From: Candidatus Lambdaproteobacteria bacterium
Lineage (GTDB): Bacteria > SAR324 > JACQKK01
Direction of reading: 5' to 3'
NCBI GenBank assembly: GCA_016204605.1
Contig: JACQKK010000034.1
Span: 1 to 58,454 of the forward strand
Length of the DNA: 58,454 bases
The position numbers and the translations under genes are program-made. Of the stretch, positions 2,247 through 27,590 are shown piece after piece. Numbering within the stretch: position 1 is the stretch's first letter; the number at the start of each line of letters is the position of its first letter. A model generated the notes under the pieces. It was not told the origin of the DNA and searched no databases. It saw only the letters and a list, made by a program, of their open reading frames with translations.

Positions 2247-2288
2247 GCCGCGCCGTGTCTGTCCAGGCTACCGCCCCGGTTTCCCGCC

Positions 2289-4133: not shown

Positions 4134-4209
4134 GCGGCCCCTGCCCGGCTGCCCGCGCCCGCGCATCGGCCGTGGGGACGCCGCATGCGGCGACCGGTCA
4201 GTTCGCCGC

Positions 4210-4668: not shown

Positions 4669-4776
4669 GTGCGCTCAACCCAAGCGCGGATTCTGGGAGC
4701 GACGCGGCGCTTTCCCCAGCGTTGCGAATGATCTACGATCGGTACCGTCTCCTCCCGGCACCTCTTGCGGCCCGCC

Positions 4777-6387: not shown

Positions 6388-6449
6388 CCCTGCTCCCACC
6401 TCGTGCCCGCTTGCGCCGTTCGACGAACACCGGCGCTCGGGCGCGCAGC

Positions 6450-6499
6450 GACCTCGCCCCCTGGCCCCGTCTCCAACTTGGAGAGAGGGGGAAGGTTGC
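6450..6499. repeat. REP-like palindromic element
   Basis: A GC-rich imperfect palindrome built around GTCTCCAACTTGGAGA, preceded by CCTCGCCCCCTGGCCCC. The same arrangement recurs near 29.8 and 30.1-30.3 kb. It lies in the short space between the convergent fusion-cytochrome and molybdenum-hydroxylase genes, where it could also act as a terminator for both. Confidence 0.6.
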
Positions 6500-6547
6500 C
6501 ATTCGGCCAGGAGAGGGTAGGCCGGGGTGGGTGAGGTTCCGCCGGGC

Positions 6548-8827
6548 CTACGCGCCGCCGCCGCGTTCCTGCTCGCGGATGGCCTGGCGCAGCTTCTCCG
6601 GGGTGATGGGCAGGGAGGTGACGCGCACGCCCACCGCGTTGTAGATGGCGTTGGCGATGGCGGCCGGGACGGGCACCACGGGCGGCTCCCCCACGCCTTT
6701 GGCGCCGTAGGGTCCCGCCACGGAGGGCTTTTCCACCAGCGTGGTCTCGATCATCGGCACATCGAGGGCGCTGGGGATCTTGTAGTCGAGGAAGCCCGCG
6801 TTCTGGGGCTGTCCGTCGCGGTAGGTGAACTGCTCGCACAACGCCTGCCCCAGCCCCTGCGCCACGCCGCCGTGGATCTGCCCTTCGACCGACATGGGGT
6901 TGATCGCCAGTCCCACGTCCTGGGCGGCGCAGTAGCGCACCACCTTGACCTGTCCCGTCTCCGGGTCCACCTCCACGTCTGCGACGTGGGCGGCCATGGA
7001 GGGCATGCGCGGAGAGTTGCCCGTGGCGCCGTAGCCCACGATGGGCCCCGTCTTGCCCTGGGCCTGCGAGAGCAGCTTGGTGACGGCCACCGCCCGGCTG
7101 GGCTCGCCCTGCACGCGCACCTGGCCCCCCTTGAGCTCCATGCGCTCGGCGGAGGCATCCAGCTCATCGACGGCCAGCTCGAACAACTGGGCCTTGATGT
7201 GCTCGGACGCCTTGAAGCAGGCCAGCCCGTGGCTTTTCAGCACCTGGCTGCCGCCGGAGTTGGTGGCGTGGGGGGCGCTGTCGGTATCGAGGGACTTCAC
7301 GGTCACCCGTTCCAGCGGCACGTCGAGCGCCTCGGCCACGATCTGGGTCATGGTGGTGTTGACCCCGGAAAGGTCGACCACGCCGCCGATCACGTTGACC
7401 GAGCCGTCGCCGTTCATCTTGATCACCGCCCCCGAGGCGTTGCCGCCCACGTTCCAGTTGCCGAGGGCCAAGCCGCGGCCCCGGTTCGGCCCCAGCCGCG
7501 CCCGGTCGTGACGGTAGCCGGAGAGGGCCAGGCACGCCTCCAGCGTATCGAGGGTGAAGACGCTCCGGTTCACGCCGCCGGCGGTGTTGACGTAGTCGGT
7601 GGGCATGGCGTTGCGGCGGCGGAACTCGATGCCGTCCCAGCCCATCGCCGCGCAGATGCGCTCGGTCTCGCTCTCCAGCGCGAAGTTGATCTGCGGGCCG
7701 CCGGGGGCGCGCATGGCGCTGGTGCAGGCCTTGTTGGTGTAGACCAGCCGCGAGGTGATGCGCAGGTTGGGGATGGCGTAGGGGCCCTCGGCGAACTGGG
7801 TCACCGAGGCGGCCATGGCGCCCGCCCCCATGGCGTGGGCGCCCTGATCCATCACCACGTCGATGGTGCGGGCGTGCATGCGCATGTCGGCCGTGACGCC
7901 CGTCTTGAGCGTGATGTGGAAGGCGGCGCGCGGGTTGCCGCCGATGAAGTCCTCATGCCGGCTCATCACGATGCGCACGGGACGGCCGGCCTTCTTCGCC
8001 AGCACCGCCGCGGCGGGCTCGATCTTCATGATGCTCTTGCCGCCGAAGCCCCCGCCGATCTCCGCCGGCACGACGCGCACCTGGTTCTGGGGCACGCCCA
8101 GCACCTCGGCCACGGCGTTGCGCAGGGGGAACTGCCCCTGGTTGGCCGTGTGGATGGTGTAGGTGCGGTCGGGGTTGTAGACCGCCACGCAGGCGTGGGG
8201 CTCCAGGTAGGTCTGGTGCTGCATCTGGGTGGTGTAGACCTGCTCGAACACCCGGGCGCACTCGCCGAAGGCCGCCTCCGGCTCGCCCCGGGTGAGGGAG
8301 TTCAGCGAGCACAGGTTGCCGCCCTGGGGCTTGGCGGGGCCCACCACCGTGTAGCGGAGCAAGTCCTCGTGGATGATGGGGGCGCCTGCGGCCAGCCCTT
8401 CGAAGGCGTCCCGCACCGGGGGCAGCAGCTCGTACTCCACCTCGATGCGCCTGACCGCCTCGAGGGCGATCTCGCGCGTATCCGCCGCCACGGCCGCCAC
8501 GCGGTCGCCCACGTAGCGCACCTTGTCGCGGGCGAAGTAGTGCTCGTCCTTCACCACGCGCCCCACGCGCTTGTCGGGCAGGTCCGCCGCGGTGGCCACC
8601 GCGCGCACACCCGGCAGCTGCTCGGCCCGGGAGGTGTCGATGCGCACGATGCGGGCATGGGGGTGGGGGGAGTGCAGCAGCTTGCCGTAGAGCACCCCCG
8701 GCACCTTGACGTCCTCGGCGAACACGGCCGCGCCGGTCAGCTTCGAGACGATATCGACCCGTGGAATGCGCTTGCCCACGTATCGGAACTGCTGCTGTAA
8801 CGCCTGTTGTTCCGCCTGCTGTACCAT
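6548..8827 (-). CDS. Molybdenum hydroxylase large subunit (xanthine dehydrogenase family)
   Basis: A 759-residue molybdopterin-cytosine-dinucleotide-binding catalytic subunit. The N-terminal a/b-hammerhead domain starts near RVDIVSKLTGAAVFAEDV. The Moco-binding domains contain GGGFGGK and APGGPQ, and the catalytic base is E714 in GVGEPP. The enzyme hydroxylates a carbon centre of an aldehyde, heterocycle or acyl-CoA. The active-site loop lacks the AYRCSFR signature of CO dehydrogenase CoxL, so CO oxidation is not supported. The gene is last in a three-gene set, 85 bases after the 2Fe-2S subunit gene, with a clear GGGAGG site before the ATG. The substrate cannot be assigned from sequence; no XdhC or MocA-type maturation gene is next to it. 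Confidence 0.93.
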   Translation of the reverse strand: MVQQAEQQALQQQFRYVGKRIPRVDIVSKLTGAAVFAEDVKVPGVLYGKLLHSPHPHARIVRIDTSRAEQLPGVRAVATAADLPDKRVGRVVKDEHYFARDKVRYVGDRVAAVAADTREIALEAVRRIEVEYELLPPVRDAFEGLAAGAPIIHEDLLRYTVVGPAKPQGGNLCSLNSLTRGEPEAAFGECARVFEQVYTTQMQHQTYLEPHACVAVYNPDRTYTIHTANQGQFPLRNAVAEVLGVPQNQVRVVPAEIGGGFGGKSIMKIEPAAAVLAKKAGRPVRIVMSRHEDFIGGNPRAAFHITLKTGVTADMRMHARTIDVVMDQGAHAMGAGAMAASVTQFAEGPYAIPNLRITSRLVYTNKACTSAMRAPGGPQINFALESETERICAAMGWDGIEFRRRNAMPTDYVNTAGGVNRSVFTLDTLEACLALSGYRHDRARLGPNRGRGLALGNWNVGGNASGAVIKMNGDGSVNVIGGVVDLSGVNTTMTQIVAEALDVPLERVTVKSLDTDSAPHATNSGGSQVLKSHGLACFKASEHIKAQLFELAVDELDASAERMELKGGQVRVQGEPSRAVAVTKLLSQAQGKTGPIVGYGATGNSPRMPSMAAHVADVEVDPETGQVKVVRYCAAQDVGLAINPMSVEGQIHGGVAQGLGQALCEQFTYRDGQPQNAGFLDYKIPSALDVPMIETTLVEKPSVAGPYGAKGVGEPPVVPVPAAIANAIYNAVGVRVTSLPITPEKLRQAIREQERGGGA

Positions 8828-8912
8828 GGGAGCCTCCCAGGAATGATCGCACCAGCGGTTGCGCGGGGGGTCGCCCCGTCCAGCAGTGGGCCGCCCGCTC
8901 AGCCCGTCGCGC

Positions 8913-9392
8913 TCAGCCCTTGGCGTTCCGGCGTTGGGCCGCCGCCGCGCCGATCGCGGCCACGATGCGGTCGTAGCCCGTGCAGCGGCAGAGGTTGCCC
9001 GAGATGGCCCGGCGGATTTCCGCCTCGCTCGGGCTGCCGTTCCGCTCCAGCAGGGTGGTGGCCGACATCAGCATGCCCGGGATGCAGAAGCCGCACTGGG
9101 AGGCGCCGTTCTCCGCGAAAGCCTGCTGGAGCGCGTTCAGCAGTTGGGGCTCGCTCAGCCCCTCCACCGTGGTGACGTGGCGACCCTGGGCCTCGATGGC
9201 GAACACAAGGCAGGCGGTGACCTGAGTGCCGTCGAGCAGCACCGAGCAGCAGCCGCACTCCCCCTCCTCGCAGGCGCGCTTGGCGCCGGTCAGGTCGCAC
9301 TGCTCCCGCAGGTAGGTCAGCAGCGACGTGCGCGCCTCCACCAGGTCTTCCCGCGGGACGCCGTTGACCGTGACCCGCAACGGAATCTTCAT
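8913..9392 (-). CDS. Molybdenum hydroxylase 2Fe-2S subunit
   Basis: A 159-residue electron-transfer subunit with two 2Fe-2S clusters. The plant-ferredoxin-type cluster uses C41, C46, C49 and C61 (CEEGECGCC). The second, helical-domain cluster uses C100, C103, C135 and C137 (CGFC and CRC). The length is normal for the family (CoxS/XdhA-small type). Its ATG overlaps the stop codon of the FAD subunit gene by four bases (ATGA), so translation is probably coupled. It passes electrons from the molybdenum centre of the large subunit to the FAD subunit. Confidence 0.95.
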   Translation of the reverse strand: MKIPLRVTVNGVPREDLVEARTSLLTYLREQCDLTGAKRACEEGECGCCSVLLDGTQVTACLVFAIEAQGRHVTTVEGLSEPQLLNALQQAFAENGASQCGFCIPGMLMSATTLLERNGSPSEAEIRRAISGNLCRCTGYDRIVAAIGAAAAQRRNAKG

Positions 9393-10273
9393 GCCGCACC
9401 TCCGCTCGTGGCGCGCGCCCGGTCGCAGGCCTCGGCCATGGCGCGCCGGGCCATCACTCCCGCCATCTCCCGGCGGTACGCGGCCGACGCGCGATGATCG
9501 TCGATGGGCCGCGCTGCCGCCGCGGCCAAATGCTCAACCCGGGCCAGGGTGCCCGCGTCGGCGCGACTGCCGGCCAGGGCCGCCCCCAGCCCCGCCACCG
9601 CCAGCACGGTGGGCGCGACGGCCCCGAGGGCGCAGGCGGCCGCGGTGATGCGGTCGCCGCGGTCGAGCGTGCACACGGCGGCCGCGCTGACGAGGGCGAT
9701 GTCCATGGCCGCCCGCGTCAGGCGCTGGAACCCGCAGCCGGTGCGGGGCGGCAGGGCCGGGAGGCGCACGGCCGTCAGCAGCTCGCCGTCCAGCAGGGTC
9801 AGCCGACCCGGGCCGCTCCAGAGCTCGGCCAGGGGCAGCTCCCGCTCGCCGCCGCCGCCCGCGATCACCGCCCGCGCCCCCAGGGCCAGCAGCACCGGCG
9901 AGGTATCGGCCGCGGGCGAGGCGTTGCAGACGTTGCCGCCCACTGTGGCCCGGTTGCGGATGGGCGGCCCGCCCACGGCGGCCGCCGCGGCCACCAGGGC
10001 CGGGTAATGGGCCAGCAGGTGGGCGTGGCGCTCGATGGCCGCCATGGTCACGGCCGCGCCGAGCGCCACGCCACCATCGGCGGCGACCCGGATCTCCCGC
10101 AGCGCGGCGATGCCCTTCAGGTCGATCACGCGGGCCACCGGCGGCTCGGCCCGCTGCATGGCCAGCAACAGGTCGCTGCCGCCCGCCAGGTACCGCGCGG
10201 CTCCGCCCCCTTCGGCCCGCAGGGCCAGCGCTTCGGCCACCGTGGCGGGGGCGTGGTAGGTGAAGTCGTCCAT
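9389..10273 (-). CDS. Molybdenum hydroxylase FAD-binding subunit
   Basis: A 294-residue protein of the CoxM/FAD_binding_5 family. It carries YLAGGSDLL and TVGGNVCNASPAADTSP, the two FAD pyrophosphate-contacting loops, and a C-terminal CO-dehydrogenase flavoprotein domain. I chose the ATG at 10271-10273 (MDDFTYH), which has a GAGG site upstream; the frame opens much earlier but that sequence is not family-like. It is first in the three-gene unit. The complex would re-oxidise through this flavin to NAD or another acceptor. Confidence 0.93.
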   Translation of the reverse strand: MDDFTYHAPATVAEALALRAEGGGAARYLAGGSDLLLAMQRAEPPVARVIDLKGIAALREIRVAADGGVALGAAVTMAAIERHAHLLAHYPALVAAAAAVGGPPIRNRATVGGNVCNASPAADTSPVLLALGARAVIAGGGGERELPLAELWSGPGRLTLLDGELLTAVRLPALPPRTGCGFQRLTRAAMDIALVSAAAVCTLDRGDRITAAACALGAVAPTVLAVAGLGAALAGSRADAGTLARVEHLAAAAARPIDDHRASAAYRREMAGVMARRAMAEACDRARATSGGAA

Positions 10274-10446
10274 GGTCCTCGCGGGGTCGCGGGTGAGCTG
10301 CGGAGGCAAGCTCTCTTTAGCCTGATCGCACCGCGCCCGGCAAGTCCTGGATTCCCGGCTCGCCCAACGGCCGCCGCCCACCGATGGGGACAGACCGCTG
10401 CGGTCGCAGAGCGCCCCGGGGGCGCACACTCCGGCGGGCCTCGACC

Positions 10447-11724
10447 TCAGGCGCGCTGATAGATCTGGAAGAAGTAGCTGATGTCCGAGAGGTACTCGGC
10501 GCGCTTGAGGGTGAAGCCGTGGGTGGTGGCCTTCCAGACCAGCCACCGGTAGTGAATCTCGTCGGGATCGAACAGACGCTGGCTGGCCTGCCTGAGCAGG
10601 TGGTCGAGCAGCACCCGCGCCCCGTCGTCGAGGGAACCGGGCAGCGGCAGCTCCCCCCGCTCCGCCCAGTCGGCGAAGCCCTGGTTCCAGGCCATCAGCG
10701 GGTCCAGATCGGCATCGACGAAGGTCAGCTCGATCAGGTGGCGCCCCCCGCGCGCCGCGGGCCAGAGCCGGTCCACCAGCGCTTCGAGGCTGGTGTAGAA
10801 CTGGAGCGGATCGAAGCGCTTGATATCGTACTGGATGTTGAACAGGCGCATCCGGATGACCATCAGCAGGCCGCCGGGATTGAGCAGCTCCCGGGCGGCG
10901 GCGAACTGGTCGTCCACCTGCGGCGGGGGCACCATGTTCATCACCTGGAGCGCCAGGATCCCATCGAAGCGCTCCCGCAGGTACTGCGCCCGGGCGAAGG
11001 TCGAGGGGCGCGCCACCTTGGGGGTGGAGATCGCCTCCTCGAGGTGATCGGAGAGGATGAACAGCCGGTCGTCCAGTTGCGGGTTGAGCTCATGCAGCAG
11101 CTCGCAGAGCACGCCCGGACCGTCGCCCACCTCCAGCAGCCGCGCCTCGGGCGGGAGCATGGGCAGCAGGATCGTCTGCACCGTGGTCTCCAGGTTGGAG
11201 AACAGCGACCGGTTCAGCGCGAAGCGGTCCCGCGGACGGCCGATCATGTCGGCGAACATCCGATAGCGGGCGAAGCCGTTGTTCTGCGAGATTACCCGCA
11301 GGTCGCCGATGCGGCCCAGGGTCGTCTTGAGCTCGGGGTAGTCCGCCAGCACCTCCGTGAACACCGCGTAGGAGAGGCGGAACAGCACCGCAGCCTCCGC
11401 GCCCTTCACCTGGACGGTGGCCGTGGCCGGGGTGTGGTTGAAGTAGGCGATCTCGCCCAGCACGCAGATCGCCGGCCGCTCGCCCACCACCCGCTCCACG
11501 CCGTCGCTGGCGAAGCGCACCTCGGTGTTCCCCTGCACGAGGAAGAAGATGTAGGGCTCCCGCTCGCCCTGGCGGACGATGGGCTGACCGGGCGGGCACA
11601 GCACCGGCTCGGCCTGGCGCGTGATGCTGAGGATCGCGGCCCCGTCGAGCCCGAACGCGTTGAGGTAGCTCATCAGCTTGCCGCGCAGGGCGTTCGCCAG
11701 CGCGTCGTCGTGCAGCCGGTTCAC
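10447..11724 (-). CDS. Cyclic-nucleotide-binding domain fused to a methyltransferase-like domain
   Basis: This is a 425-residue soluble protein. Residues about 25-150 form a CRP-type cyclic-nucleotide-binding fold, with PGQPIVRQGE, a hydrophobic strand IFFLVQGNTEV, and a LGEIAYFN segment where the phosphate-binding cassette should be. Residues about 190-330 look like a Rossmann methyltransferase (LLEVGDGPGVLCELL, then GILALQVMNMV, then LNPGGLLMVIR). There is no helix-turn-helix, so it is not a CRP-type regulator. The ATG overlaps the dtd stop by four bases, tying it to the murC-murB-ftsQ-dtd run. Ligand and methyl acceptor are unknown, and neither activity is proven; the classical SAM motif GxGxG is only partly kept. 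Confidence 0.75.
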   Translation of the reverse strand: MNRLHDDALANALRGKLMSYLNAFGLDGAAILSITRQAEPVLCPPGQPIVRQGEREPYIFFLVQGNTEVRFASDGVERVVGERPAICVLGEIAYFNHTPATATVQVKGAEAAVLFRLSYAVFTEVLADYPELKTTLGRIGDLRVISQNNGFARYRMFADMIGRPRDRFALNRSLFSNLETTVQTILLPMLPPEARLLEVGDGPGVLCELLHELNPQLDDRLFILSDHLEEAISTPKVARPSTFARAQYLRERFDGILALQVMNMVPPPQVDDQFAAARELLNPGGLLMVIRMRLFNIQYDIKRFDPLQFYTSLEALVDRLWPAARGGRHLIELTFVDADLDPLMAWNQGFADWAERGELPLPGSLDDGARVLLDHLLRQASQRLFDPDEIHYRWLVWKATTHGFTLKRAEYLSDISYFFQIYQRA

Positions 11725-15913: not shown

Positions 15914-15995
15914 TGCCGATGGGGAGACTCGAACTCCCACGGGTTGCCCCACTACCCCCTCAAGATAGCGTGTCTGCCAGTTCCACCACATCGGC
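15914..15995 (-). tRNA. tRNA-Leu (anticodon GAG)
   Basis: The reverse strand folds as a class II tRNA. The acceptor stem GCCGATG pairs with CATCGGC. There is a D arm with AACTGGCAGA, an anticodon stem CTATC/GGTAG with loop TTGAGGG, a long variable arm, and a T arm GGGAG-TTCGAGT-CTCCC. The discriminator is A, as expected for leucine. Anticodon GAG reads CUC and CUU. The 3' CCA is not encoded: CTG follows the discriminator. Confidence 0.95.
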
Positions 15996-16301
15996 CGGGG
16001 AAGCATAGGGACTGTACCGGCTTCGCCGCGGGGGTTCAAGCCGGCGGACCCCCCCCACCCCGGCCCTCCCTCGCCGCGGGCGGAGCGGGAGGGCGCGCCC
16101 AATCGGCCGCCACGGCGGAACAGCGATCCTACCCCTCGCCAGGTTGCAGAGGGGAAGCGAGGGGGCGAGGTGGCGCGCTTGGCCCGCGCACGCGCCGGTG
16201 TCAGGATAGGGGAGAATGGGCCGCGCACAGTGCACGGGCCGGCTCAGCGCATGCGAGGGCGCGGCGCGACACCCTCCGTACCCGAGAGAGGCGACACCGC
16301 A

Positions 16302-17321
16302 ATGAGCAGCGAAGCCGTGCTGGGCGTGAAGCCACTGGGCTTCCCCTGGGAAACGCCCGATCCGTTCCTCACCTGCGTGCACCACGACGATGCCTACCCC
16401 CGCGGCAACGAGCGGCTGGGGCCGGCCGCCTCGCTGGCGGGGCGCAAGCTCGGCACGGATTTCGAGGGCGTGGACGGCTGGCGCATGTACCACGGCGAGG
16501 AGGTGCCCGGCTTTCCGCGCCATCCCCATCGGGGCTTCGAGACGGTGACCATCGCCCGGCGCGGCTTCATCGACCACTCCGACTCGCTCGGCGCCACGGC
16601 GCGCTTCGGGCGGGGCGATGTGCAGTGGATGACGGCCGGGCGGGGCATCGTGCACGCGGAGATGTTCCCGCTGCTCGACCGTGACGCGCCGAACCCGCTG
16701 GAGCTGTTCCAGATCTGGATCAACCTGCCGGCTGCGGACAAGCTCGTCGAGCCCCACTTCAAGATGCTGTGGAGCCAAGACATCCCCACGGTCACCGCCC
16801 GCGACCCCGAGGGTCGCGAGACGCGGGTGACCGTGGTCGCGGGACGCCTGGGCGGCGTGCGGGCTCCGGCGCCGCCGCCCCGTTCCTGGGCGGCCCGTCC
16901 GGAGTCCGACGTGGCCATCTGGCCCATCGCCATGGCGCCCGGCGCGCGCTGGGTGCTGCCCGCGGCGGCGCCGGGCACGACCCGCACGGCGTATGTCCAC
17001 CGGGGCGAGGCGCTCACCCTCGGCGGGCGCACGATCGAGGGCCATGCGGCGGTGCGGCTGCGGCCGGATGCCGACGTGGCGCTCGACAACGGCGGCGCAC
17101 CCTGCGAGGTGCTGCTGCTGCAAGGCCGGCCGATCGGGGAGCCGATCGCGCAGTATGGCCCCTTCGTGATGAACTCCCGGGCCGAGATTCTCCAGGCGTT
17201 CGCCGATTACCGGCAGACGGAGTTCGGCGGCTGGCCCTGGCCCAGCGACGGGCCGGTGCACCCCGCCGCCGCAGGCCGGCACGCCCGCCATCCCGACGGC
17301 CGCATCGAGCGCCGCGGCTGA
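16302..17321 (+). CDS. Pirin family protein
   Basis: A 339-residue bicupin. The metal-binding ligands of the N-terminal cupin are visible as HPHRG (H74, H76) and GIVHAE (H118, E120), all kept, so quercetinase-like or redox-sensing chemistry is possible as in other pirins. The C-terminal cupin lies at about residues 200-300. The ATG at 16302 follows a GAGAGAGG site; an earlier in-frame start adds 44 residues that are not pirin-like. The C-terminus (after residue about 320) is a His/Arg/Pro-rich tail. Biological substrate unknown. Confidence 0.92.
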   Translation: MSSEAVLGVKPLGFPWETPDPFLTCVHHDDAYPRGNERLGPAASLAGRKLGTDFEGVDGWRMYHGEEVPGFPRHPHRGFETVTIARRGFIDHSDSLGATARFGRGDVQWMTAGRGIVHAEMFPLLDRDAPNPLELFQIWINLPAADKLVEPHFKMLWSQDIPTVTARDPEGRETRVTVVAGRLGGVRAPAPPPRSWAARPESDVAIWPIAMAPGARWVLPAAAPGTTRTAYVHRGEALTLGGRTIEGHAAVRLRPDADVALDNGGAPCEVLLLQGRPIGEPIAQYGPFVMNSRAEILQAFADYRQTEFGGWPWPSDGPVHPAAAGRHARHPDGRIERRG

Positions 17322-17496
17322 CGCCGGCGCCGGATCGGGCCCCGCACCCGGCTCCCGCACCTGGGGCCGCGCCCGCGGCGGTACGAGACGTGCTATACGC
17401 GGAGGAGCGGCAGGCGGCGGCGCCTCGGGCCGCGTGGGCGGAAGGCCCCCAGGATCGTGGGCTGCCACCGCGACGCCCTACAGTCGGGGATGGACG

Positions 17497-18060
17497 ATGA
17501 CGATCGGTGCGCAAATCGGCGGGTACCGCGCCCGCATGTCGGTGCGGCTGGGAGCGGCGCTGTGGCTGGCGCTGGCGTTGGCCGTGCCGGCGGGCGCGGG
17601 CTACGGCGCTGAGCCCGCCACCCGGCCTGCGCCCCCGCCGGCGGCAGCGCGGCCTGAACCGTCACGGAGCGTCGGCGATCAGGACATCCTCATCTTCCGC
17701 CCCCTCGAAACCGGCGCCCAGCCGGCACCCGAAACCCTGCTGGAAGTGCCGGGGGGCAACTCCTGCCTGTTCGACGCCCAGCGGCGCCGGCTGTGGGGAT
17801 GCGGCTACATGTACCCATTCGTGGTCGAGGTGAGCGCCTTCTCGGCGATCCGGTGGATTGCCGTCAACGGTCGCGTGCTGGCCCGCCCCAACAGCACCTG
17901 GGCCCGTGCGCTCGAGTGGGTGGTGGCGTCGCCGGGCGGCACGAAGGTGGAGGTCGAGGCCGCCACCGCCAGCCGCACCGCGCGCAGCACGTTCATGGTG
18001 CGCATCCCCGGGGTCAGGCTGCCCGGCACGCCTTTCTTCATCGACCTGTCCGCCCCTTGA
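17497..18060 (+). CDS. Secreted protein of unknown function
   Basis: About 187 residues with a signal peptide (hydrophobic run LGAALWLALALAVPAGAG after a basic N-terminus), then a Pro/Ala-rich linker and a beta-rich domain. Two cysteines (C87 and C99 region, around SCLFDA and WGCGYMYPF) may form a disulfide in the periplasm. I do not recognise a family. It is followed after 86 bases by the FecR-domain protein gene in the same direction, and the two may work together at the cell envelope. The start is ambiguous: an ATG 13 codons later also leaves the signal peptide intact. Confidence 0.6.
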   Translation: MTIGAQIGGYRARMSVRLGAALWLALALAVPAGAGYGAEPATRPAPPPAAARPEPSRSVGDQDILIFRPLETGAQPAPETLLEVPGGNSCLFDAQRRRLWGCGYMYPFVVEVSAFSAIRWIAVNGRVLARPNSTWARALEWVVASPGGTKVEVEAATASRTARSTFMVRIPGVRLPGTPFFIDLSAP

Positions 18061-18146
18061 ACAGCCGAACGCACCATGCTCCGGCACCCCGGCGCCTGCG
18101 GCCGGGGGCGGGCGGGCAGACCCGCCCCGCACGGCCCGCAGCGAAG

Positions 18147-19379
18147 GTGAGCGCGCGATCCCTGCTGGCGGCGGCGATCGGCCTCGCGCTGCTGCTGGCG
18201 CTGGAGGCTCGCGCGGCCGAGCCCGCCGGCGAGGTGCTGCTGCAGCGGGGGCTGCTGAAGGTGCGCCGCGTCGAGGTGGAGCACATCTATCAGAAGCCCG
18301 GCGAACGGATTCCGCTGTTCGAGACCGACGTGGTGCATACCGGCGAGAACTCGCGCGCCACCGTCACGCTCTACGCCAACCGCGACACCATCGCCATGTA
18401 CTCGAACAGCTTCCTGCGCGTGGCGACGGCGCGCCGGGAGGATTCGGTGCTGGCCCTCAACGTGGGGAAAGCCTTGTTCGCCTTCGCGCGCCGGCTGGCT
18501 GAGCAGAGGGCACAGGTGCTCACCCCCACCGCCACCCTGGGCGTCAAGGGCACGGAGTTCATCGCCGGCGCCACCGAGACGGAAAGCTACGTCCTGACCC
18601 TGGAGGGCGTCGTGGGCGTCGTCTCCAAGGCCGAGCCGGAGCGCGAAGTCAACGTCACCAAGGACATGCTCTACTACGTGACGCCGCAGGCCGTGCCCAA
18701 GGCGCCGCTCCCCGTCTCGCCCGTGACCCGGGAACGGGTGCTGAAGGAAGAGGGGCTCGATACGCTGCGCCAGGTGGGCCCCGAAGCGGGAACCGCAACC
18801 GCTCCCGCGCCGCGCCGCCCGATCGCCTTCCTCCGCTTCGGGCTCGCGCCCCTCACCACGACGATCCCCTTCCGCGATGCCCAGCGGCAGGATCACCGCA
18901 GGACGGTGACCGGGCAGGGCGCCCTGCTGGCGCTCGAGCTCCGGCTGCTCGGTCCCCTGACGCTGGAAGCGCTCGGGGTCGGGGGCGGCGTGACGGGGGC
19001 CACGAGCGAGGCGCCCGATCCTGCCGCGGCGACCACGGACCCGGGCGGCCGCACCACCACCCTGGCCCTGCTGCTCGGCCTGCGCTTCACCCTGGGCGAC
19101 TCCTGGAGCTTCGCCGCCCACGCCGGGCCCTTCGCCAACTGGACCGGCCTGAACGAGGCCGCTCCCGGCTCCGCGCCGCAGACGCTCAACCTGCGGGGCG
19201 GCATGGCGCGGGTCGCGCTGGACTATTGGTTCCAGAACAGGGGCACGCTCGGCATCGCCCTGCATGGCGGCTCGGCGACTCCCCAGGGCACCGAGGTGGA
19301 GCGGCTGCACGGCCTGGGCCTCGAAACGGGCACCGCCACCCATACCTTCGCGGCGCTCACCCTCGGCGGGAGGTTCTGA
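18147..19379 (+). CDS. FecR-domain envelope protein with C-terminal beta-barrel-like region
   Basis: About 410 residues from a GTG that gives a clean signal peptide (SLLAAAIGLALLLALEARAA). Residues about 30-170 match the FecR periplasmic sensing fold, with VHTGENSRATVTL and the very conserved TPTATLGVKGTEF segment. The C-terminal 220 residues alternate polar and hydrophobic residues with repeated aromatic strand ends (LGLRFTLGDSWSFAAH, VALDYWF) and finish in GGRF, as outer-membrane barrels do. No sigma factor, anti-sigma helix or TonB receptor is adjacent, so a classical iron-signalling role is unlikely. Function unknown. Confidence 0.72.
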   Translation: MSARSLLAAAIGLALLLALEARAAEPAGEVLLQRGLLKVRRVEVEHIYQKPGERIPLFETDVVHTGENSRATVTLYANRDTIAMYSNSFLRVATARREDSVLALNVGKALFAFARRLAEQRAQVLTPTATLGVKGTEFIAGATETESYVLTLEGVVGVVSKAEPEREVNVTKDMLYYVTPQAVPKAPLPVSPVTRERVLKEEGLDTLRQVGPEAGTATAPAPRRPIAFLRFGLAPLTTTIPFRDAQRQDHRRTVTGQGALLALELRLLGPLTLEALGVGGGVTGATSEAPDPAAATTDPGGRTTTLALLLGLRFTLGDSWSFAAHAGPFANWTGLNEAAPGSAPQTLNLRGGMARVALDYWFQNRGTLGIALHGGSATPQGTEVERLHGLGLETGTATHTFAALTLGGRF

Positions 19380-20038: not shown

Positions 20039-21103
20039 ATGTCCAGGTTGTCGTTCTTCAGAATCGGTCGCGCAGCCCTGCTGGCACTCGTGCTTGGCGT
20101 GGTCGCGACGTTGGCATTCGGTCAGAAGTCGCTCGTCAGCGTCAAGACGGATCAGGCCCCCGCCATCGATGGGGCCGTGGACGGGGCGTGGGCGAAGGCG
20201 CCCGAGTACAAGTTCACCCTCGACAAGACGGTCTACGAGCCGAGCAACGGCTACAAGGGCGTCAAGAAGACCAACGTCACCATGAAGTCGCTCTACGACG
20301 CCGAGAACATCTACTTCCTGGTCGTGTACGACGACCCCACCGAAAGCCTGGCGCGCTATCAATGGGTGAAGCAGGGCGATGGAAGCTGGAAACAATCGAA
20401 GAATGCCGACAGCACCGGACACGAGAACACGTACTACGAAGACAAGGCGGCGCTGCTCTGGAACATCAACACCAAGGACTTCGACAAGCGCGGCTGCGCG
20501 ATCGTGTGCCACAAGGCGCGCGGCGGCAAGCTGGCGGGTTTTTCGGACAAGTCCCCGGGCCGCAAGTACACCAACAAGCCCGGCGAGACCGTGGACATGT
20601 GGCACTGGAAGAGCGTGCGCACCAACCCGGTCGGGCAGATCGACGACCAGTACATCGACGACACCAAAGACCCAGCCAAGAACGCCAACTGGGGCCGCAA
20701 GGTCGATGCGAAAACCAGCGGCGGCTACGTGGACAACCAGAACAAGGAAAAGACCGCGCCCGCGTTCATGAACGCAGCGGCCGATGGCTCGAAGTTCTGG
20801 GTGCTCGATAGCGCGAAGGCGCCGTTCGCCGATAGCTTCAAGGCCGGCGACGTGGTCGGGGGCATCGTGATCGCGCCGTTTGCAGGCTCTCGCGGAGACA
20901 TCCCGGCGAAGGGCGTGTGGAACGCGGGCAAGTGGACGATCGAGCTCAAGCGCAGCCTCACGACCTCGGGCGACAAGGCGCAAGCGCAGGACGTGCAGTT
21001 CTCCGACCTGAAGAAGACGTACACCTTCGGGCTTTCCGTGTTCGACAACTCGGCGATCAACCACGTGTACCAGGAGGGCGTCCACCGGCTGACCTTCAAG
21101 TAG
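20039..21103 (+). CDS. Exported EB_dh-type heme-binding cytochrome
   Basis: A 354-residue periplasmic protein with a signal peptide (AALLALVLGVVATLAFGQ). The body resembles the heme-binding domain of ethylbenzene dehydrogenase gamma subunits and related proteins, which hold a heme b in a beta-sandwich: AIDGAVDGAWAKAPEY at the start, YFLVVYDDP, WNINTKDF and a C-terminal TYTFGLSVFDN. It also contains one CxxxCH site (C153-H158, CAIVCH), so a covalently bound heme is possible. First gene of a seven-gene same-strand locus, with the strongest ribosome-binding site there (GGAGGTAAC). No ethylbenzene dehydrogenase alpha or beta subunit is nearby, so it probably shuttles electrons for the cytochromes that follow. 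Confidence 0.82.
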   Translation: MSRLSFFRIGRAALLALVLGVVATLAFGQKSLVSVKTDQAPAIDGAVDGAWAKAPEYKFTLDKTVYEPSNGYKGVKKTNVTMKSLYDAENIYFLVVYDDPTESLARYQWVKQGDGSWKQSKNADSTGHENTYYEDKAALLWNINTKDFDKRGCAIVCHKARGGKLAGFSDKSPGRKYTNKPGETVDMWHWKSVRTNPVGQIDDQYIDDTKDPAKNANWGRKVDAKTSGGYVDNQNKEKTAPAFMNAAADGSKFWVLDSAKAPFADSFKAGDVVGGIVIAPFAGSRGDIPAKGVWNAGKWTIELKRSLTTSGDKAQAQDVQFSDLKKTYTFGLSVFDNSAINHVYQEGVHRLTFK

Positions 21104-21287
21104 GTCGGCGCCTGATCCATTGCCGCGTGTCCCACCACCCGGAGGCGAGAGCGCGATCTGCCTCCCTCCCACCAGCGGGGCGCGCGGCCCCTCTCACGAG
21201 CGCCATCGTCGCTGCACACGCAGCCACAAGCCAGCACCCCGGTCGGCAGGAGTCCGCTGCCGCCCTTCAGTCGGAAGGCCTAACCGC

Positions 21288-22163
21288 ATGCGGCCGCATC
21301 TCCAACCGTTGGTTCCGTTCGCACTGATCGTGCTGCTGGGAGGCGCCTGGGGGCTGCTCGGCGGCAAAGTCCCCGGCGATGGCATGGTGCCACGGCTCCA
21401 GGCGGCAGAACCCACCTCGACGCCCGTCCGGGCGACCCCCCCGCGCAACAAGGACGATATCGAGCTGGAACAGATGATGAAGGGGCGGAAAGCCATCCGG
21501 GCGTTCACGGTGCGGGGCCAGAGCATCGCGGAAGCCCCCCCGTTCAAGGTGGAAACCCGGCAGGACAAGATGCAGTTCTATCCCTGCACGAACTGCCACG
21601 ACAACCAGTTCGTCGATCGCCGCGTGCGCAAGCTCACCGAGGAACACCGCGAGCTGGTGTTCGAGCATGGCGGCGGCCGCTTCTGGTGCTACGACGTGTG
21701 CCACAACGGACGCGACATGAACCGGCTGATCTCCTACCGCAGGCAGCCGATCTCCTATGACGAGAGCTACAAGCTCTGCGGCCAGTGCCACTTCGAGCGG
21801 CAGAAGGACTGGGTGTTCGGCGGCCACGGCAAGCGGCTCGGAGCATTCGCGGTGCCCAGGAACATTCCGGAGAAGTACGAGGAGCTGAAGGTGGCCGACC
21901 GCCAGGCGATCGGCACCTGGCAAGGCGAGCGGGTGGTGCACATGTGCGCGAGCTGCCACAACCCGCACTCCCCCGCGATCAAGCCCTACACCCCGAGCCC
22001 CCCGCCCAGGGTGCGGCTGGGGCTCGCACCGCCCGCCACGCGGGGCGCACCGGCGCCCAAGCCGTGGCAGAAGCCCGGCCCGTCGAAGGGGGGAGCGCCA
22101 GCGGCGATCACCCCCGTGTCCAAGGCCCCGGCAGCGGGCGCCCCTGCGGGAGTAAAGCCATGA
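21288..22163 (+). CDS. Exported tetraheme cytochrome c
   Basis: About 291 residues. A signal or anchor helix at residues 8-26 (LVPFALIVLLGGAWGLLGG) is followed by four heme c sites: CTNCH at 100, CYDVCH at 134 (an extended CxxxCH), CGQCH at 164 and CASCH at 220. The last 60 residues are a Pro/Ala/Lys-rich tail without hemes. The ATG at 21288 has GGAAGG upstream. The stop overlaps the next start (ATGA), coupling it to the Fe-S protein. It most likely is the periplasmic partner that takes electrons from the Fe-S/NrfD membrane module. The exact family is not recognised. Confidence 0.85.
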   Translation: MRPHLQPLVPFALIVLLGGAWGLLGGKVPGDGMVPRLQAAEPTSTPVRATPPRNKDDIELEQMMKGRKAIRAFTVRGQSIAEAPPFKVETRQDKMQFYPCTNCHDNQFVDRRVRKLTEEHRELVFEHGGGRFWCYDVCHNGRDMNRLISYRRQPISYDESYKLCGQCHFERQKDWVFGGHGKRLGAFAVPRNIPEKYEELKVADRQAIGTWQGERVVHMCASCHNPHSPAIKPYTPSPPPRVRLGLAPPATRGAPAPKPWQKPGPSKGGAPAAITPVSKAPAAGAPAGVKP

Positions 22164-23116
22164 GCATGCGTCCAGAGACCCAGCCCGCAGAGCGGAGCGG
22201 CTGGTCCCGCCGCAGCCTGCTCAAGCGCGGCGGGATGCTCACGTTCCTGGCGGGGCTGTTCGGCGCCGTGCCGGCCGTGGCGCAGAAGGTGGCCGAAGCC
22301 GACGACCATGCGCTCTCCGATGCCGTGGGTGCGCTGTTCCAGAAGCACTACCAGAAGATGACGCCCGAGGAGGTGCAGGAGGCGATCGCGCGCATCACGC
22401 GCACGGCGAAACGCGAGCAGGGCGTGGACATCACGGTGGCCACCGACCCGCCGCTGCAGGGCGTCATCTTCGGCTACGCGCTCAACATCTCCAAGTGCAA
22501 GGGCGTGCGGCGCTGCGTCGAGGCGTGCGTGGCGGAGAACAACCAGGGGCGCGAATCGCAGATCCAATACATCCGCGTGCTGGAGCTGGAGAAAGGCGAC
22601 ATGAACCTGAACGACGCGGATCACTACTTCGCGCCGGAACTCGTGCCCCAGCCGGGCAAGTTCTACATGCCCATCCAGTGCCTGCAGTGCGACAACCCGC
22701 CCTGCGTGATAGCGTGCCCGGTGCAGGCCACCTGGAAGGAGCCCGACGGCATCGTCGTTGTGGACTACAACTGGTGCATCGGCTGCCGCTACTGCATGGC
22801 GGCCTGCCCGTATTGGGCGCGGCGCTTCAACTTCAGCCAGCCCAAGATTCCCAAGGAGCAGGTCAACACCGATACCCATTACCTGGGCAACCGGCCAAGG
22901 CCCCGCGGCGTCGTGGAGAAGTGCCACTTCTGCATCCAGCGCACCCGCAAGGGGCGCCTGCCCGCCTGCCTGGAAGCGTGCCCCACCGGCGCCCGGGTGT
23001 TCGGCAACATCCTCGATCCCAACAGCGACATCCGCTACGTGCTCGAGAACAAGACCGTCTTCCGGCTCAAAGAGGAGCTCGGGACGGAACCCAAGTTCTG
23101 GTACTACACCGATTGA
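22160..23116 (+). CDS. NrfC/PsrB-like tetra-cluster Fe-S protein
   Basis: A 318-residue ferredoxin-like subunit with a twin-arginine leader (RRSLLKRGG), so it is exported folded. Three complete four-Cys sets are visible: C174/177/182/186, C206/209/212/216 and C255/258/270/274. The first set is C113, C119, C123 with Val116 where the second Cys normally is, giving 15 instead of 16 ligands. It should pass electrons between the NrfD-like quinol site and the cytochromes. Overlaps the tetraheme gene by four bases; nrfD-like follows after six bases. Similar pairs serve polysulfide, nitrite and other reductases, but the usual catalytic subunit is missing here. Confidence 0.9.
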   Translation: MSMRPETQPAERSGWSRRSLLKRGGMLTFLAGLFGAVPAVAQKVAEADDHALSDAVGALFQKHYQKMTPEEVQEAIARITRTAKREQGVDITVATDPPLQGVIFGYALNISKCKGVRRCVEACVAENNQGRESQIQYIRVLELEKGDMNLNDADHYFAPELVPQPGKFYMPIQCLQCDNPPCVIACPVQATWKEPDGIVVVDYNWCIGCRYCMAACPYWARRFNFSQPKIPKEQVNTDTHYLGNRPRPRGVVEKCHFCIQRTRKGRLPACLEACPTGARVFGNILDPNSDIRYVLENKTVFRLKEELGTEPKFWYYTD

Positions 23117-23122
23117 GGGGCC

Positions 23123-24439
23123 ATGGGGTCTTTGGTCGCATTCTTCGCCGACGGCATCAAGCAGGTGTTCCGGGGAGACCGGCTGTACTGGGCCTGGCTG
23201 GTGGGGCTGGTGGCCGTGATCGCCAACGGCGCGTACTACTACGGCCAGCAGCTGCAGCAGGGGCTGATCGTCACTGGGTTGAGCGACCAGGTGTCGTGGG
23301 GAGTGTACATCGCCAACTTCACCTACCTGGTCGGCGTGGCCGCCGCGGCGGTGATGCTGGTCATACCCGCCTACATCTTCGATCGGGAGGACATCAAGCA
23401 CGTCGTGCTGATCGGCGAGGGTGTGGCGGTGGCGGCGGTGACGATGACAATCCTGTTCGTGACCGTCGATCTGGGCCGTCCGGATCGAATCTGGCACATG
23501 CTGCCGCTGCTGGGGCGGTTCAATTTCCCCCAGTCGATGCTGGCCTGGGACGTGCTGGTGTTGACGGGCTACCTGTTCCTGAACCTCACCATCCCCTTCT
23601 ACATGCTGTTCGTGAAGTACCGGGGCGGGGAGCCCAATTTCGCCGTCTACTTCCCGGGGGTGCTGATCTCGATCTTCTGGGCGATCTCGATCCACACGGT
23701 CACCGCGTTCCTGTTCTCCTCGAACGTGGCCCGGCCGTTCTGGAACACGGCCATCCTCGGGCCGCGCTTCCTGGCCTCGGCCTTCACTTCCGGGCCGGCG
23801 CTGATCGTGCTCGCGCTCCAGGTGATCGACCGCTTCACGGCGTTCAAGGTGCATCGGCCCGTGATCGACTTCATGGCGCTGATCATCACCGTGTCGCTGC
23901 AGATCAACCTGTTCCTGCTGGGGGTGGAGTTCTTCACCGAGTTCTACTTCCCCACCGAGAAAGGCATCGCCTCGCACTACCTGTTCTTCGGCGTGAATGG
24001 CTTCAACGCGCTGGTGCCCTGGATCTGGACGGCCTTCGGCTTCAACGTGGTGGCGGCGTTCATCCTGACCATCCATCCGCTCCGGGCGCGGCGGGCGCTC
24101 CTCAACGTGGCGTGCGCGCTGGCGATAGTCGGGGTGTGGATCGAAAAGGGGATGGGGTTGATCATTCCGGGCTTCGTGCCCACCCCCATCGGCGAGATGT
24201 TCAATTACTCGCCGTCTCAGGTCGAAGTGTTCGTCTCGCTGGGCATCTGGGCTGCGGGGCTGCTCGTGTTCACCATTCTCACCAAGATCGCCCTGCCCAT
24301 CGAGCTCGGCACGCTGGTCTGGGTGCCGGGCGGGACGCGCTCGCGCTATCCTGGCGGCCCCCATGGCGCGGCCAGCCCAGGGCATCCGCAACGCCCGCAA
24401 CCCCAGCAGCCCGCCGCCCCTGAAGGAGAGCGTCCATGA
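23123..24439 (+). CDS. NrfD/PsrC-like quinone-binding membrane subunit
   Basis: A 438-residue integral membrane protein with about nine to ten hydrophobic helices, for example WLVGLVAVIANGAYYYG, FTYLVGVAAAAVMLVIPAYIF and VLISIFWAISIHTVTAFLF. It belongs to the NrfD/PsrC family, which exchanges electrons between menaquinol or ubiquinol and a periplasmic Fe-S partner. The last 35 residues are a Pro/Gly/Gln-rich cytoplasmic tail. A GAGGGG site precedes the ATG, six bases after the Fe-S gene, and its stop overlaps the next start. With the Fe-S protein it forms the quinol-oxidising core of the locus. Confidence 0.92.
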   Translation: MGSLVAFFADGIKQVFRGDRLYWAWLVGLVAVIANGAYYYGQQLQQGLIVTGLSDQVSWGVYIANFTYLVGVAAAAVMLVIPAYIFDREDIKHVVLIGEGVAVAAVTMTILFVTVDLGRPDRIWHMLPLLGRFNFPQSMLAWDVLVLTGYLFLNLTIPFYMLFVKYRGGEPNFAVYFPGVLISIFWAISIHTVTAFLFSSNVARPFWNTAILGPRFLASAFTSGPALIVLALQVIDRFTAFKVHRPVIDFMALIITVSLQINLFLLGVEFFTEFYFPTEKGIASHYLFFGVNGFNALVPWIWTAFGFNVVAAFILTIHPLRARRALLNVACALAIVGVWIEKGMGLIIPGFVPTPIGEMFNYSPSQVEVFVSLGIWAAGLLVFTILTKIALPIELGTLVWVPGGTRSRYPGGPHGAASPGHPQRPQPQQPAAPEGERP

Positions 24440-25233
24440 GTGCCCCATCCAGCCGCACGATCGGCCTGTGGCTTGCTTGCAGAGGTCTGATGCTCGGCGC
24501 GGCGCTGGTGTTTGCGCAGGGCGCCGCCGCGCAGCCGGCGGCGAATCGGGTCACGAACTCGTGCGTGGATTGCCACAGCGACGCCAAGTTCCTGGTGCAG
24601 AACAAGAAGCTGTACGACTACTACCAGGGCTGGCAGCTTTCCGTGCACCGCCAGGAGAAGGTGACCTGCGTGGACTGCCATGGCGGCAATCCGCGCCTGG
24701 CGGACAAGACGGGGGCTCACAGCGGCAAGGCCATGCGGGCGGCAGAGCCGGAAAGCCCCATCAGCTACCAGAACGTCCCGAAGACCTGCGCGAACTGCCA
24801 TGAGGATGTCTACAAGAGCTACCAGCAGAGCGCCCACTTCAAGAACCTCAAGGCCAAGGCCGAGGACAAGCAGGGCCCGAATTGCGTGACCTGCCACGGG
24901 TCGGTCAACATCTCCGTGCTCAATGTCGGCACCGTGCGCACCACCTGCGAGCAGTGCCACAACACGAAGACGGGCGTCTTCCCCGAGATCCCCGAGCAGG
25001 CCGAAGACGTGCTGAGCAATTTCCTCTCCATCCACCGCTACTACCGCTTCATCGCCACCCGCGGAGAGCCCGGCCAGATCCAGGCCTTGTTCAAGATCAT
25101 CGATCCCCGCATCAAGCGGCTGAATGCGAGCTGGCACACCTTCGACCTCGACAAAGTGACCAGCGAGACCAAGGAGCTGATCGATTTCCTGAAAGTGCAG
25201 CGGGACCAGATCGCGCGACAACGGGCCCGCTAG
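24436..25233 (+). CDS. Exported pentaheme cytochrome c
   Basis: A 265-residue protein with a signal peptide (LMLGAALVFAQGAAAQ). Five heme c motifs are at residues 43 (CVDCH), 78 (CVDCH), 118 (CANCH), 150 (CVTCH) and 171 (CEQCH), with extra His residues suitable as distal ligands. After the last heme about 90 residues form a helical, charged C-terminal region without hemes, which is reminiscent of cytochrome c554/nitrite-reductase-type folds but lacks an obvious active site. It overlaps the NrfD-like gene by four bases. It is a likely electron acceptor of the Fe-S/NrfD pair. Confidence 0.88.
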   Translation: MSAPSSRTIGLWLACRGLMLGAALVFAQGAAAQPAANRVTNSCVDCHSDAKFLVQNKKLYDYYQGWQLSVHRQEKVTCVDCHGGNPRLADKTGAHSGKAMRAAEPESPISYQNVPKTCANCHEDVYKSYQQSAHFKNLKAKAEDKQGPNCVTCHGSVNISVLNVGTVRTTCEQCHNTKTGVFPEIPEQAEDVLSNFLSIHRYYRFIATRGEPGQIQALFKIIDPRIKRLNASWHTFDLDKVTSETKELIDFLKVQRDQIARQRAR

Positions 25234-25466
25234 CCGGGCTGCCGGCGGGCTGCGCCGCGTGCCAGGGCCCGCCGGGGTCTCGTGGCCGCGCGGCCGCCGC
25301 CGGCGGCGCGGCGACGTTTCGTCACAGGAGCCGGTGCGCGACCCGCGCCTCTCACCTCGACATGACCGGATCAGGCCGGAGCCGCCCGAACGCGACACCG
25401 GGGAGACCTCGTCTCCCCTGACACGGCAGACCGCATGGGCCGCTTTCCGATCCTCAAGGAGTGACC

Positions 25467-27014
25467 ATGGGTACCCAAGAACACGAACCCGCAGCTGGCG
25501 GCGGCACGCCCCGGCCGCCTTCGGCCGTCTACAACTGGCTCAGCATGGTGGGGGTGGCGCTGGTCGTGATCGGCATCGTCGGCTCGGCGGTGCTGGCCAT
25601 TTCCACGGCCGTCATGCCTTCGACCCCGCAGTACGTGGGCATCCTGTTCCTGCCGCCGGTCGCGCTGATCGTGCTGGGAATCATCCTGTTCCCTTTGGGC
25701 TACCTGCTGGAAAAACGGCGGCGCTCCCATGGCGAGGCGGGGCGCATGCCGATGCAGATCCTGATCGACTTCACCTTGGCCCGCCATCGGGTGATCCTGC
25801 TGACGACTCTGGTGGTGGGCGTGCTGGCGTTCACCGTGTTCGCTATGGGCTCTTTCCAGGCCTTCACGGCGATGGAGACCAACGCGTTCTGCGGCCAGGT
25901 GTGCCACAGCGTGATGGCGCCCGAGTACACGGCCTACCAGCACACGCCCCACGCCAGGGTGAGGTGCGTGGAATGCCACATCGGCTCGGGGGTGGGTTGG
26001 TACGTACATGCCAAGGTTTCCGGGGTGCGACGCCTGACGGCGCTCATCTCGGGCACGTACGCCCGCCCAATCCCCGCTCCCATCACCGACATGCGCTCGG
26101 CAAAGGAGACGTGCGAGGAGTGCCACTGGTCCTCCCGCTTCGTCGGCTACAAGGAGAAGGTGCTGACGTACTACACCAAGGGCGAGGACAGCCCGGAAAC
26201 CAAGCTGCGCCTGCTGATCAAAATCGGCGGCGCCGATTCGCCCTTCATCAAGGGCTTCGGCATCCATTACCACATGCAGGGCGCCAACAAGGTCGAGTAC
26301 ATCGCGCGCGACCGGCAGCGGCAGGAGATCGCCTGGGTGAAGGTCACCCGGCGCGACGGCAGCAGCACCGAATTCAACCACCAGGATCTCGGCCTGAGCG
26401 AGGAGGAACGCAGCAAGCTACCCGTGCGCCGGGTGGAATGCCTGGATTGCCACAACCGCCCCGCCCACGAGTTCAAATCGCCGGTGGACGCCGTCGATGG
26501 GGCCCTGGCCGCAGGCACCCTCAGCCGTGCCCTGCCCTACATCAAGGTGCGCGCGGTCAAGGCGCTCGATAGCAACTACGACACCACCGACGCGGCGATG
26601 GCCGGAATCGCCGACTCGCTGACGGAGTACTACAAGGAGAACTACCCCGACGTGCTCACCAAGCAGGCCGACCTGCTGAAGCGGACCACGGCCCAGCTAC
26701 AGGCGATCTACAAGACCAACTTCTTCCCGGAGATGAAGGCCAAGTGGTCCGCCTATCCGAAGAACATCGGCCATCGCGACTGGCCCGGCTGCTTCCGCTG
26801 CCACACCGACAAGATGTTGTCGGCCAAGGGCGAGAAGGTGTTCACCGACTGCACCAAGTGCCACCTGGTGCTGGCCCAGGGCAAATCGGTGGAAAGGGTG
26901 TCGACGGTCAACTACACCCGCGGGCAGGCGTTCAATCACCCGGGCTACGACGAGCAGATCAAGGAATACACCAAGTGCATCGACTGCCACACCGGTGGCG
27001 CCGATCTCTACTGA
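25467..27014 (+). CDS. Heptaheme NapC/NirT-like inner-membrane cytochrome c (ImcH-like layout)
   Basis: A 515-residue protein. Three membrane helices (about 28-49, 57-80, 108-130) precede a periplasmic domain with seven heme c sites: CGQVCH at 142 (CxxxCH), CVECH 167, CEECH 216, CLDCH 325, CFRCH 442, CTKCH 462 and CIDCH 504. The ETNAFCGQVCHSVMAPEY region with the following C-V-E-C-H-I-G is the NapC/NirT quinol-oxidising signature. Size, helix count and heme count resemble Geobacter ImcH, an inner-membrane quinol oxidase used for extracellular respiration; that link is by memory of the family, not alignment. ATG at 25467 follows AAGGAG at good spacing. A second quinol entry point besides NrfD is implied. 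Confidence 0.88.
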   Translation: MGTQEHEPAAGGGTPRPPSAVYNWLSMVGVALVVIGIVGSAVLAISTAVMPSTPQYVGILFLPPVALIVLGIILFPLGYLLEKRRRSHGEAGRMPMQILIDFTLARHRVILLTTLVVGVLAFTVFAMGSFQAFTAMETNAFCGQVCHSVMAPEYTAYQHTPHARVRCVECHIGSGVGWYVHAKVSGVRRLTALISGTYARPIPAPITDMRSAKETCEECHWSSRFVGYKEKVLTYYTKGEDSPETKLRLLIKIGGADSPFIKGFGIHYHMQGANKVEYIARDRQRQEIAWVKVTRRDGSSTEFNHQDLGLSEEERSKLPVRRVECLDCHNRPAHEFKSPVDAVDGALAAGTLSRALPYIKVRAVKALDSNYDTTDAAMAGIADSLTEYYKENYPDVLTKQADLLKRTTAQLQAIYKTNFFPEMKAKWSAYPKNIGHRDWPGCFRCHTDKMLSAKGEKVFTDCTKCHLVLAQGKSVERVSTVNYTRGQAFNHPGYDEQIKEYTKCIDCHTGGADLY

Positions 27015-27128
27015 CGCCGCGGCGCCTGTCCCAGCCCCGCGCATGGGGCGGGCCGCGCCGGTGGCGGTGACTTGCCAGCCGACCGGGTCCGAGGGCCGGG
27101 CCGGCATCCGCCAGACGAGGAGATGGTC

Positions 27129-27590
27129 ATGGGCAGCAAACAGAAGGCCGGCCGGCGTGGGGCCGGCGGAAATCAAGCCGGCGGGCGCTCCGGTCGCTGG
27201 CTCACGGGGGCGTTGATCGCCCTCGGCGCGCTGGCGGTCGTGGCGGTGGTCTACTTTTCGACCGCGCGCCCGGCGGGCAGCGGCAAGTCCTTCCGGGTCA
27301 CGGGCGGGGAGACGCGGGCGGTGCTCGCCCCGCACCAGTTCGGCAAGCTGGGGGCATTCATGGGCTACGCGGCGGCGCAGCGCCATCGGGACGTGATGGA
27401 TCACCTGTACTGCTACTGCCAGTGCGACCGTCCGCCCTCCTACCACAAGAGCCTGCTGAGCTGTTTCGTGGACCAGCACGGCGCCAACTGCGACGTTTGC
27501 CAGGAACAGGCCCGGCAGGCGGGCAGAATGGCCGACGAGGGCAAGTCCATCGACGAGATCCGGACCGCCATCGACCGCACCTTCGGCTGA
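27129..27590 (+). CDS. PCYCGC-motif-type membrane-anchored protein
   Basis: About 153 residues with one membrane helix (ALIALGALAVVAVVYF), then a domain carrying CYCQC in place of the usual PCYCGC, followed by YHKSLLSCF and CDVCQEQA. This pattern of six or so cysteines matches the PCYCGC-motif family of unknown function (Pfam-type domain), which may bind a metal or heme in the periplasm. The ATG at 27129 has GAGGAG upstream; an ATG two codons earlier is possible. It is the last gene of the cytochrome locus, 115 bases after the heptaheme gene. A role in assembly or metal delivery to the complex is guesswork. Confidence 0.78.
   Translation: MGSKQKAGRRGAGGNQAGGRSGRWLTGALIALGALAVVAVVYFSTARPAGSGKSFRVTGGETRAVLAPHQFGKLGAFMGYAAAQRHRDVMDHLYCYCQCDRPPSYHKSLLSCFVDQHGANCDVCQEQARQAGRMADEGKSIDEIRTAIDRTFG

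Follow-up and report, generated by a model that had tools for sequence, protein, structure and literature searches.

A seven-gene multiheme locus pairing a Cbc4-type triad with an ImcH-type cytochrome in a SAR324 bacterium: a probable two-entry electron-export module

The window analysed here, the whole stretch of 58,454 nucleotides from a Candidatus Lambdaproteobacteria bacterium, carries seven genes on a single strand (20039-27590) that, on balance, probably form a quinol-oxidising electron-export module. The module would have two entries, and electrons would leave it through periplasmic hemes for outer-membrane conduits encoded elsewhere in the genome. The host genome comprises 3.84 Mb in 212 contigs and is approximately 80% complete, and the GC content of the window is 69%. 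Gene families were assigned with Pfam and NCBIfam. The open reading frames and family matches agree with a previous sequence-only reading that had described a seven-gene locus at this place, and the genes are as follows.

20039..21103, + strand: g1, exported EB_dh-domain protein of 354 aa with one CX3CH (PF09459, E 2.6e-44)
21288..22163, + strand: g2, membrane-anchored tetraheme cytochrome in the CbcS/DsrJ position (CX2CH, CX3CH, CX2CH, CX2CH)
22160..23116, + strand: g3, DsrO/CbcT-like Fe-S protein with an RR (Tat-like) leader and 15 Cys (NF045797)
23123..24439, + strand: g4, DsrP/CbcU-like membrane subunit of the NrfD family, predicted to oxidise quinol (PF03916, E 1.4e-42; NF045798)
24436..25233, + strand: g5, periplasmic pentaheme cytochrome of 265 aa (five CXXCH)
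25467..27014, + strand: g6, ImcH-type heptaheme NapC/NirT cytochrome with three TM helices (PF03264 at the N-terminus, E 1.9e-10)
27129..27590, + strand: g7, membrane-anchored protein of the CYCXC/PCYCGC family (NF041379, 101 bits, cut-off 90; PF13798)

Together these genes hold 17 heme motifs of the CXXCH or CX3CH form (1, 4, 0, 0, 5, 7 and 0 in g1 to g7), matching the approximately 17 heme c sites claimed earlier. Shuffling the residues of the cytochromes yields a mean of 0.00-0.05 heme motifs with a maximum of 2, so the 17 motifs are far over chance. Four-base overlaps join g2 to g3 (22160-22163) and g4 to g5 (24436-24439) only, which makes two such junctions and not the three counted before. 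The remaining neighbours are separated by approximately 184 nt (g1/g2), 6 nt (g3/g4), 233 nt (g5/g6) and approximately 114 nt (g6/g7). Given the gap between g5 and g6, one transcript for g1-g7 is not assured, and a promoter and terminator scan of the locus gave no usable signal. As had been proposed, neither a molybdopterin nor a nitrite-reductase subunit lies inside the cluster; the nearest identified molybdenum-enzyme gene in the window encodes a xanthine-dehydrogenase-type subunit (6548-8827, opposite strand), and an MFS gene on the opposite strand follows the cluster downstream.

Within the cluster, none of the genes was recognised as coding for an outer-membrane cytochrome or a porin, and no CbcL/MtrH/MtoC-type gene was recognised in the window. 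A FecR-domain gene on the cluster strand (17793-19379) ends approximately 660 nt before g1 and has a possible C-terminal barrel ending in GGRF. At a distance of 14 kb upstream of the locus, ORF 4765-6387 has a C-terminal cytochrome c554-type part with four heme motifs. It was considered as the counterpart of a tetraheme c554-type gene of the relatives and was left out of the set because the heme part is approximately 25% identical and the N-terminal part differs. Farther along the window, 41284-42933 and 43422-45071 encode tandem paralogous solute-binding proteins of family 5 with very similar leaders.

The third and fourth genes had been described as an NrfC/NrfD pair. On profile scores and gene order, this pair belongs to a triad of the CbcSTU (Cbc4) type, of which it forms the DsrO/DsrP-like core: g3 scores 188 bits against the DsrO model NF045797 (cut-off 200) versus 117 bits against NrfC (cut-off 378), and g4 scores 405 bits against the DsrP model NF045798 (cut-off 350) versus 25 bits against NrfD (cut-off 348). 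The other family names given earlier (EB_dh, tetraheme, pentaheme, NapC/NirT heptaheme and PCYCGC) are retained. The NrfABCD nitrite reductase is marked by the catalytic cytochrome NrfA plus NrfC and NrfD; it was rejected as a counterpart, g5 being weakly similar to c552 and the scores with the NrfC and NrfD models falling far under cut-off. CbcSTU (Cbc4) of Geobacter comprises a tetraheme cytochrome c, a DsrO-like Fe-S protein and an NrfD-type membrane protein (PMC11434368, PMC10989804). Judged by the composition and order in this published description, g2-g4 form the same three-gene unit, arranged as tetraheme, Fe-S and NrfD-type genes without DsrMK (PMC11434368), whereas the pentaheme and ImcH-type genes that come after the triad in the window, and the loss of one cluster-I cysteine from the Fe-S proteins of the phylum, set it apart from Cbc4.

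DsrP-like genes in the phylum of the window are of two kinds, one in complete DsrMKJOP loci (L152-L156) and one accompanied by a tetraheme and a g3-like gene without DsrMK. In a tree, g4 falls with the triad kind and apart from the true DsrP of the same phylum (support 100/100). Although g3 and g4 are DsrO/DsrP-like, no DsrM or DsrK adjoins g2-g4, and g2 has four hemes where DsrJ of DsrMKJOP has three. A detached piece of DsrMKJOP is thus ruled out by the tree, the heme count and the absent DsrMK. The four hemes of g2 are kept in 20 homologs. Cluster I of g3 has a valine at the second cysteine, which in the alignment is retained in four Verrucomicrobiota triads and in true DsrO. In the phylum, every one of the 17 triad Fe-S proteins (the window and 16 others; L011-L013, L139-L151) has valine or tyrosine at this position.

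The triad is a module that is seen alone (L141, L146, L147, L149), beside molybdopterin-family genes (L139, L140, L143, L144, L145, L148) or adjoining g6 (L011, L012, L013 and the window). The sole plasmid triad found, on a Flammeovirga plasmid, adjoins NapD and a molybdopterin oxidoreductase. The frequent molybdoenzyme neighbours count against a fixed export role, as do ten molybdopterin-family genes in the host genome (PF00384 matches, one of them Alternative-Complex-III-like). They keep alive the main alternative, in which the locus would oxidise quinol to feed at least one periplasmic reductase encoded elsewhere, e.g. a molybdoenzyme, with its cytochromes acting as periplasmic distributors comparable to CymA and SirCD in Shewanella. 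Against this supply role, the stretches read contain no molybdoenzyme where the triad is accompanied by both g5 and g6 (window, L012, L013), and L011 and L012 have porin-like and 12-heme genes instead; it is considered rather unlikely. The suspicion that the set might always lie beside a reductase subunit does not hold for the full set and holds in part for the triad alone.

The second entry would be provided by g6. The ORF list starts this gene at GTG 25461, and the ATG at 25467, which follows an AAGGAG ribosome site, is preferred. The protein of 515-517 aa has a CX3CH motif (CGQVCH) beside its TM domain, followed by six CX2CH. Its three membrane helices, already noted from the sequence, are recovered both by hydropathy and in an AlphaFold2 model (H26-51, H64-89, H107-138; mean pLDDT 81.9). 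ImcH has 495-519 aa, three N-terminal TM helices, an adjacent atypical CX3CH and six CX2CH (PMC6295460). The length, three helices, CX3CH and six CX2CH of g6 agree with this, as does its NapC/NirT-like part, and g6 is called ImcH-type by this published description. It is homologous (36-37%) to proteins of Melioribacter, Korobacter and Ignavibacterium, from groups that bear ImcH or are near such groups (PMC6295460).

Relatives of g6 occur in at least 586 stretches of genome contigs, and each of the 86 homologs in the alignment carries 7 or 8 heme motifs and has a CX3CH near its N-terminus. Viral contigs held no relatives of g6, plasmids gave just a short NapC/NirT match, and a Foldseek search of the AlphaFold2 model against the PDB returned nothing at E <= 0.001. 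In the tree, a FastTree support of 100 places the protein with those of its own phylum and of two MAGs that carry Myxococcota/Deltaproteobacteria labels. One of the two, L020 (“Deltaproteobacteria bacterium”), is the same contig as L013 and comes from a genome of the same family as the window. Of 50 well-flanked ImcH-type loci in named genomes, 40 have a further ORF with at least four hemes within 5 kb.

The pairing of two kinds of quinol entry without a terminal reductase, which was central to the sequence-only reading, stands in that the Cbc4-type triad adjoins the ImcH-type g6. In four genera of the phylum the triad has g6 as its neighbour, with differing gene orders (L011, L012, L013, window), and in three of these, the relatives L011-L013, the core lies in larger cytochrome clusters. 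L012 carries on a single strand a porin-like gene (“porin-like” being judged from length, missing hemes and position, and the L012 protein having no Pfam match), 12-heme and 4-heme genes, g5, g6, g2, g3, g4, a 3-heme gene and a 10-heme lipoprotein gene. In L011, g2-g3-g4-g6 lies beside a divergent porin-like/12-heme/lipoprotein cluster, and in L013 the order is g2-g3-g4-g5, a 4-heme gene, g6, a 9-heme gene and a cytochrome b-like protein. The triad also accompanies a g6 homolog in four Verrucomicrobiota loci; in two, an 8-/9-heme cytochrome followed by a heme-free protein of 668-734 aa lies nearby. Elsewhere, additional g6 homologs have NrfCD-type genes in their vicinity. L011 also encodes a CbcL-like protein (15974-18397) with 16 hemes and a cytochrome b561 domain, giving three quinol-entry types in one locus.

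The triad and g6 might also be independent quinol modules that are adjacent and do not cooperate. The gap of 233 nt between g5 and g6 is consistent with this, as are the absence of the triad from most named g6 loci and of g6 from 13 triad loci of the phylum in the stretch read. Adjacency in four phylum genera in varied order and joint occurrence in four Verrucomicrobiota loci speak against independence, which appears improbable. Zhong and Shi found no mtrAB adjacent to imcH (PMC6295460). The window g6 differs in adjoining a Cbc4-type triad and a pentaheme gene, and the clusters of its relatives hold 12-heme and porin-like genes. ImcH-like genes have been described within porin-cytochrome clusters of karst MAGs, where an inner-membrane ImcH/NapC-like gene adjoins the outer-membrane conduit (PMC13264449); in the window genome, by contrast, the outer-membrane part is on separate contigs, and there is a Cbc4-type triad in addition.

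In the export module as proposed, quinol would be oxidised at the first entry by a Cbc4-like complex, with electrons moving from g4 to the Fe-S protein g3 and on to the tetraheme g2, and at the second by the ImcH-type heptaheme quinol dehydrogenase g6. Both entries would deliver to periplasmic carriers, probably the pentaheme g5 and perhaps the EB_dh-type g1. These carriers would pass electrons outward to OmcA/MtrC decahemes and cytochrome-porin-like proteins on other contigs (C15/C182), and the final acceptor would be extracellular, e.g. Fe(III), Mn(IV) or humics. The g5 protein is 49% identical to its counterparts in L012 and L013. A profile search matches g1 to subunit C of nitrite oxidoreductase (7b04_C, E 1.2e-5), and a g1 paralog adjoins a third cytochrome-porin-like copy on C208. 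Orthologs of g1 lie directly before fusions of an 8-heme part with cytochrome b (L168 8277-11982, L169 1-3508, L171 2357-5527). These fusions and the L011 protein resemble CbcL, MtrH and MtoC, which are multiheme quinol oxidoreductases of export routes.

The host genome encodes two OmcA/MtrC-family decahemes (C182:7618-10800 and C15:12661-15795; 439 and 421 bits, cut-off 209), and this family is over cut-off in 3 of 52 phylum genomes, each with a g6 homolog. Just upstream of the decahemes are cytochrome-porin-like paralogs (C182:6247-7509, L130; C15:11207-12418, L131). Each has a leader and two CXXCH, the last residue of its C-terminal half is aromatic, and neither copy has a Pfam match or a match to a naming family. 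They are read as putative cytochrome-porins; a barrel test, in which the alternation of hydrophobic residues reaches 13-18 versus shuffled means of 9-10, is suggestive. The family, whose members are exported, bear one or two CXXCH and have a barrel-like part at the C-terminus, is also seen at C208:33713-34816 (L172), on C471 of G007 (L175) and on C4 of G029 (L192). A member lies directly upstream of an OmcA/MtrC decaheme in C182, C15 and C471. On C182, the L130 run (314-10800) starts near the contig edge and carries QrcC-like Fe-S and NrfD genes, class-I cytochromes, the cytochrome-porin and the decaheme, possibly a second quinone-to-surface route on one contig.

Cytochrome-porin-like proteins occur in 3 of 52 phylum genomes (G000, which is that of the window, G007 and G029), and all three have the triad adjoining g6, an arrangement present in 4 of 52; the chance of this co-occurrence is 1.8e-4, a figure corrected neither for kinship nor for the post-hoc selection of the query. 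The 12-heme and porin-like proteins of the relatives have no homolog in the 80%-complete host genome, so what links the locus to C15/C182 is co-occurrence, seen in very few genomes. A search of the phylum for the MtrB/PioB family gave no match anywhere, controls included. The sequence-only reading had asked whether porin-cytochrome or outer-membrane multiheme genes lie elsewhere in this genome, and two decahemes with cytochrome-porin-like proteins were found there, not the 12-heme and porin-like types of the relatives.

Such proteins could also serve an inward chain, in which extracellular Fe(II) or another donor would pass electrons through outer-membrane cytochromes to quinone. The Fe(II) oxidase Cyc2 has the motif AXPXFAR[Q/K][T/Y] before its CXXCH and PXL after it (PMC8406198). 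The cytochrome-porin-like proteins are laid out like Cyc2 but have neither motif, and quinol oxidation is the only direction in which ImcH homologs have been implicated to date (PMC6295460). An Alternative-Complex-III-like locus on C158 suggests oxygen respiration, in keeping with an inward chain, which is nevertheless doubtful. For the outward direction, a tentative extension is that the Cbc4-type plus ImcH-type operon feeds a conduit of new design, built from small heme-bearing porins and OmcA/MtrC decahemes without MtrA/MtrB.

The locus had been suggested as a possible undescribed conduit. The relatives and the host genome do tie it to surface cytochromes, but “undescribed” is not upheld, since the core parts are of described kinds, the pairings recur in Verrucomicrobiota and others, and comparable clusters are published (PMC13264449). 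The locus is most likely a new combination of known parts and not a new type of system.

Quinol oxidases of Geobacter are encoded by separate genes and are said to differ in the redox potential of the acceptors they serve. A joint Cbc4-type and ImcH-type locus could be used to ask whether both entries feed the same carrier. An export role would extend electron export to an uncultured lineage, and the heme-bearing porin beside a surface decaheme may represent a further way of crossing the outer membrane.
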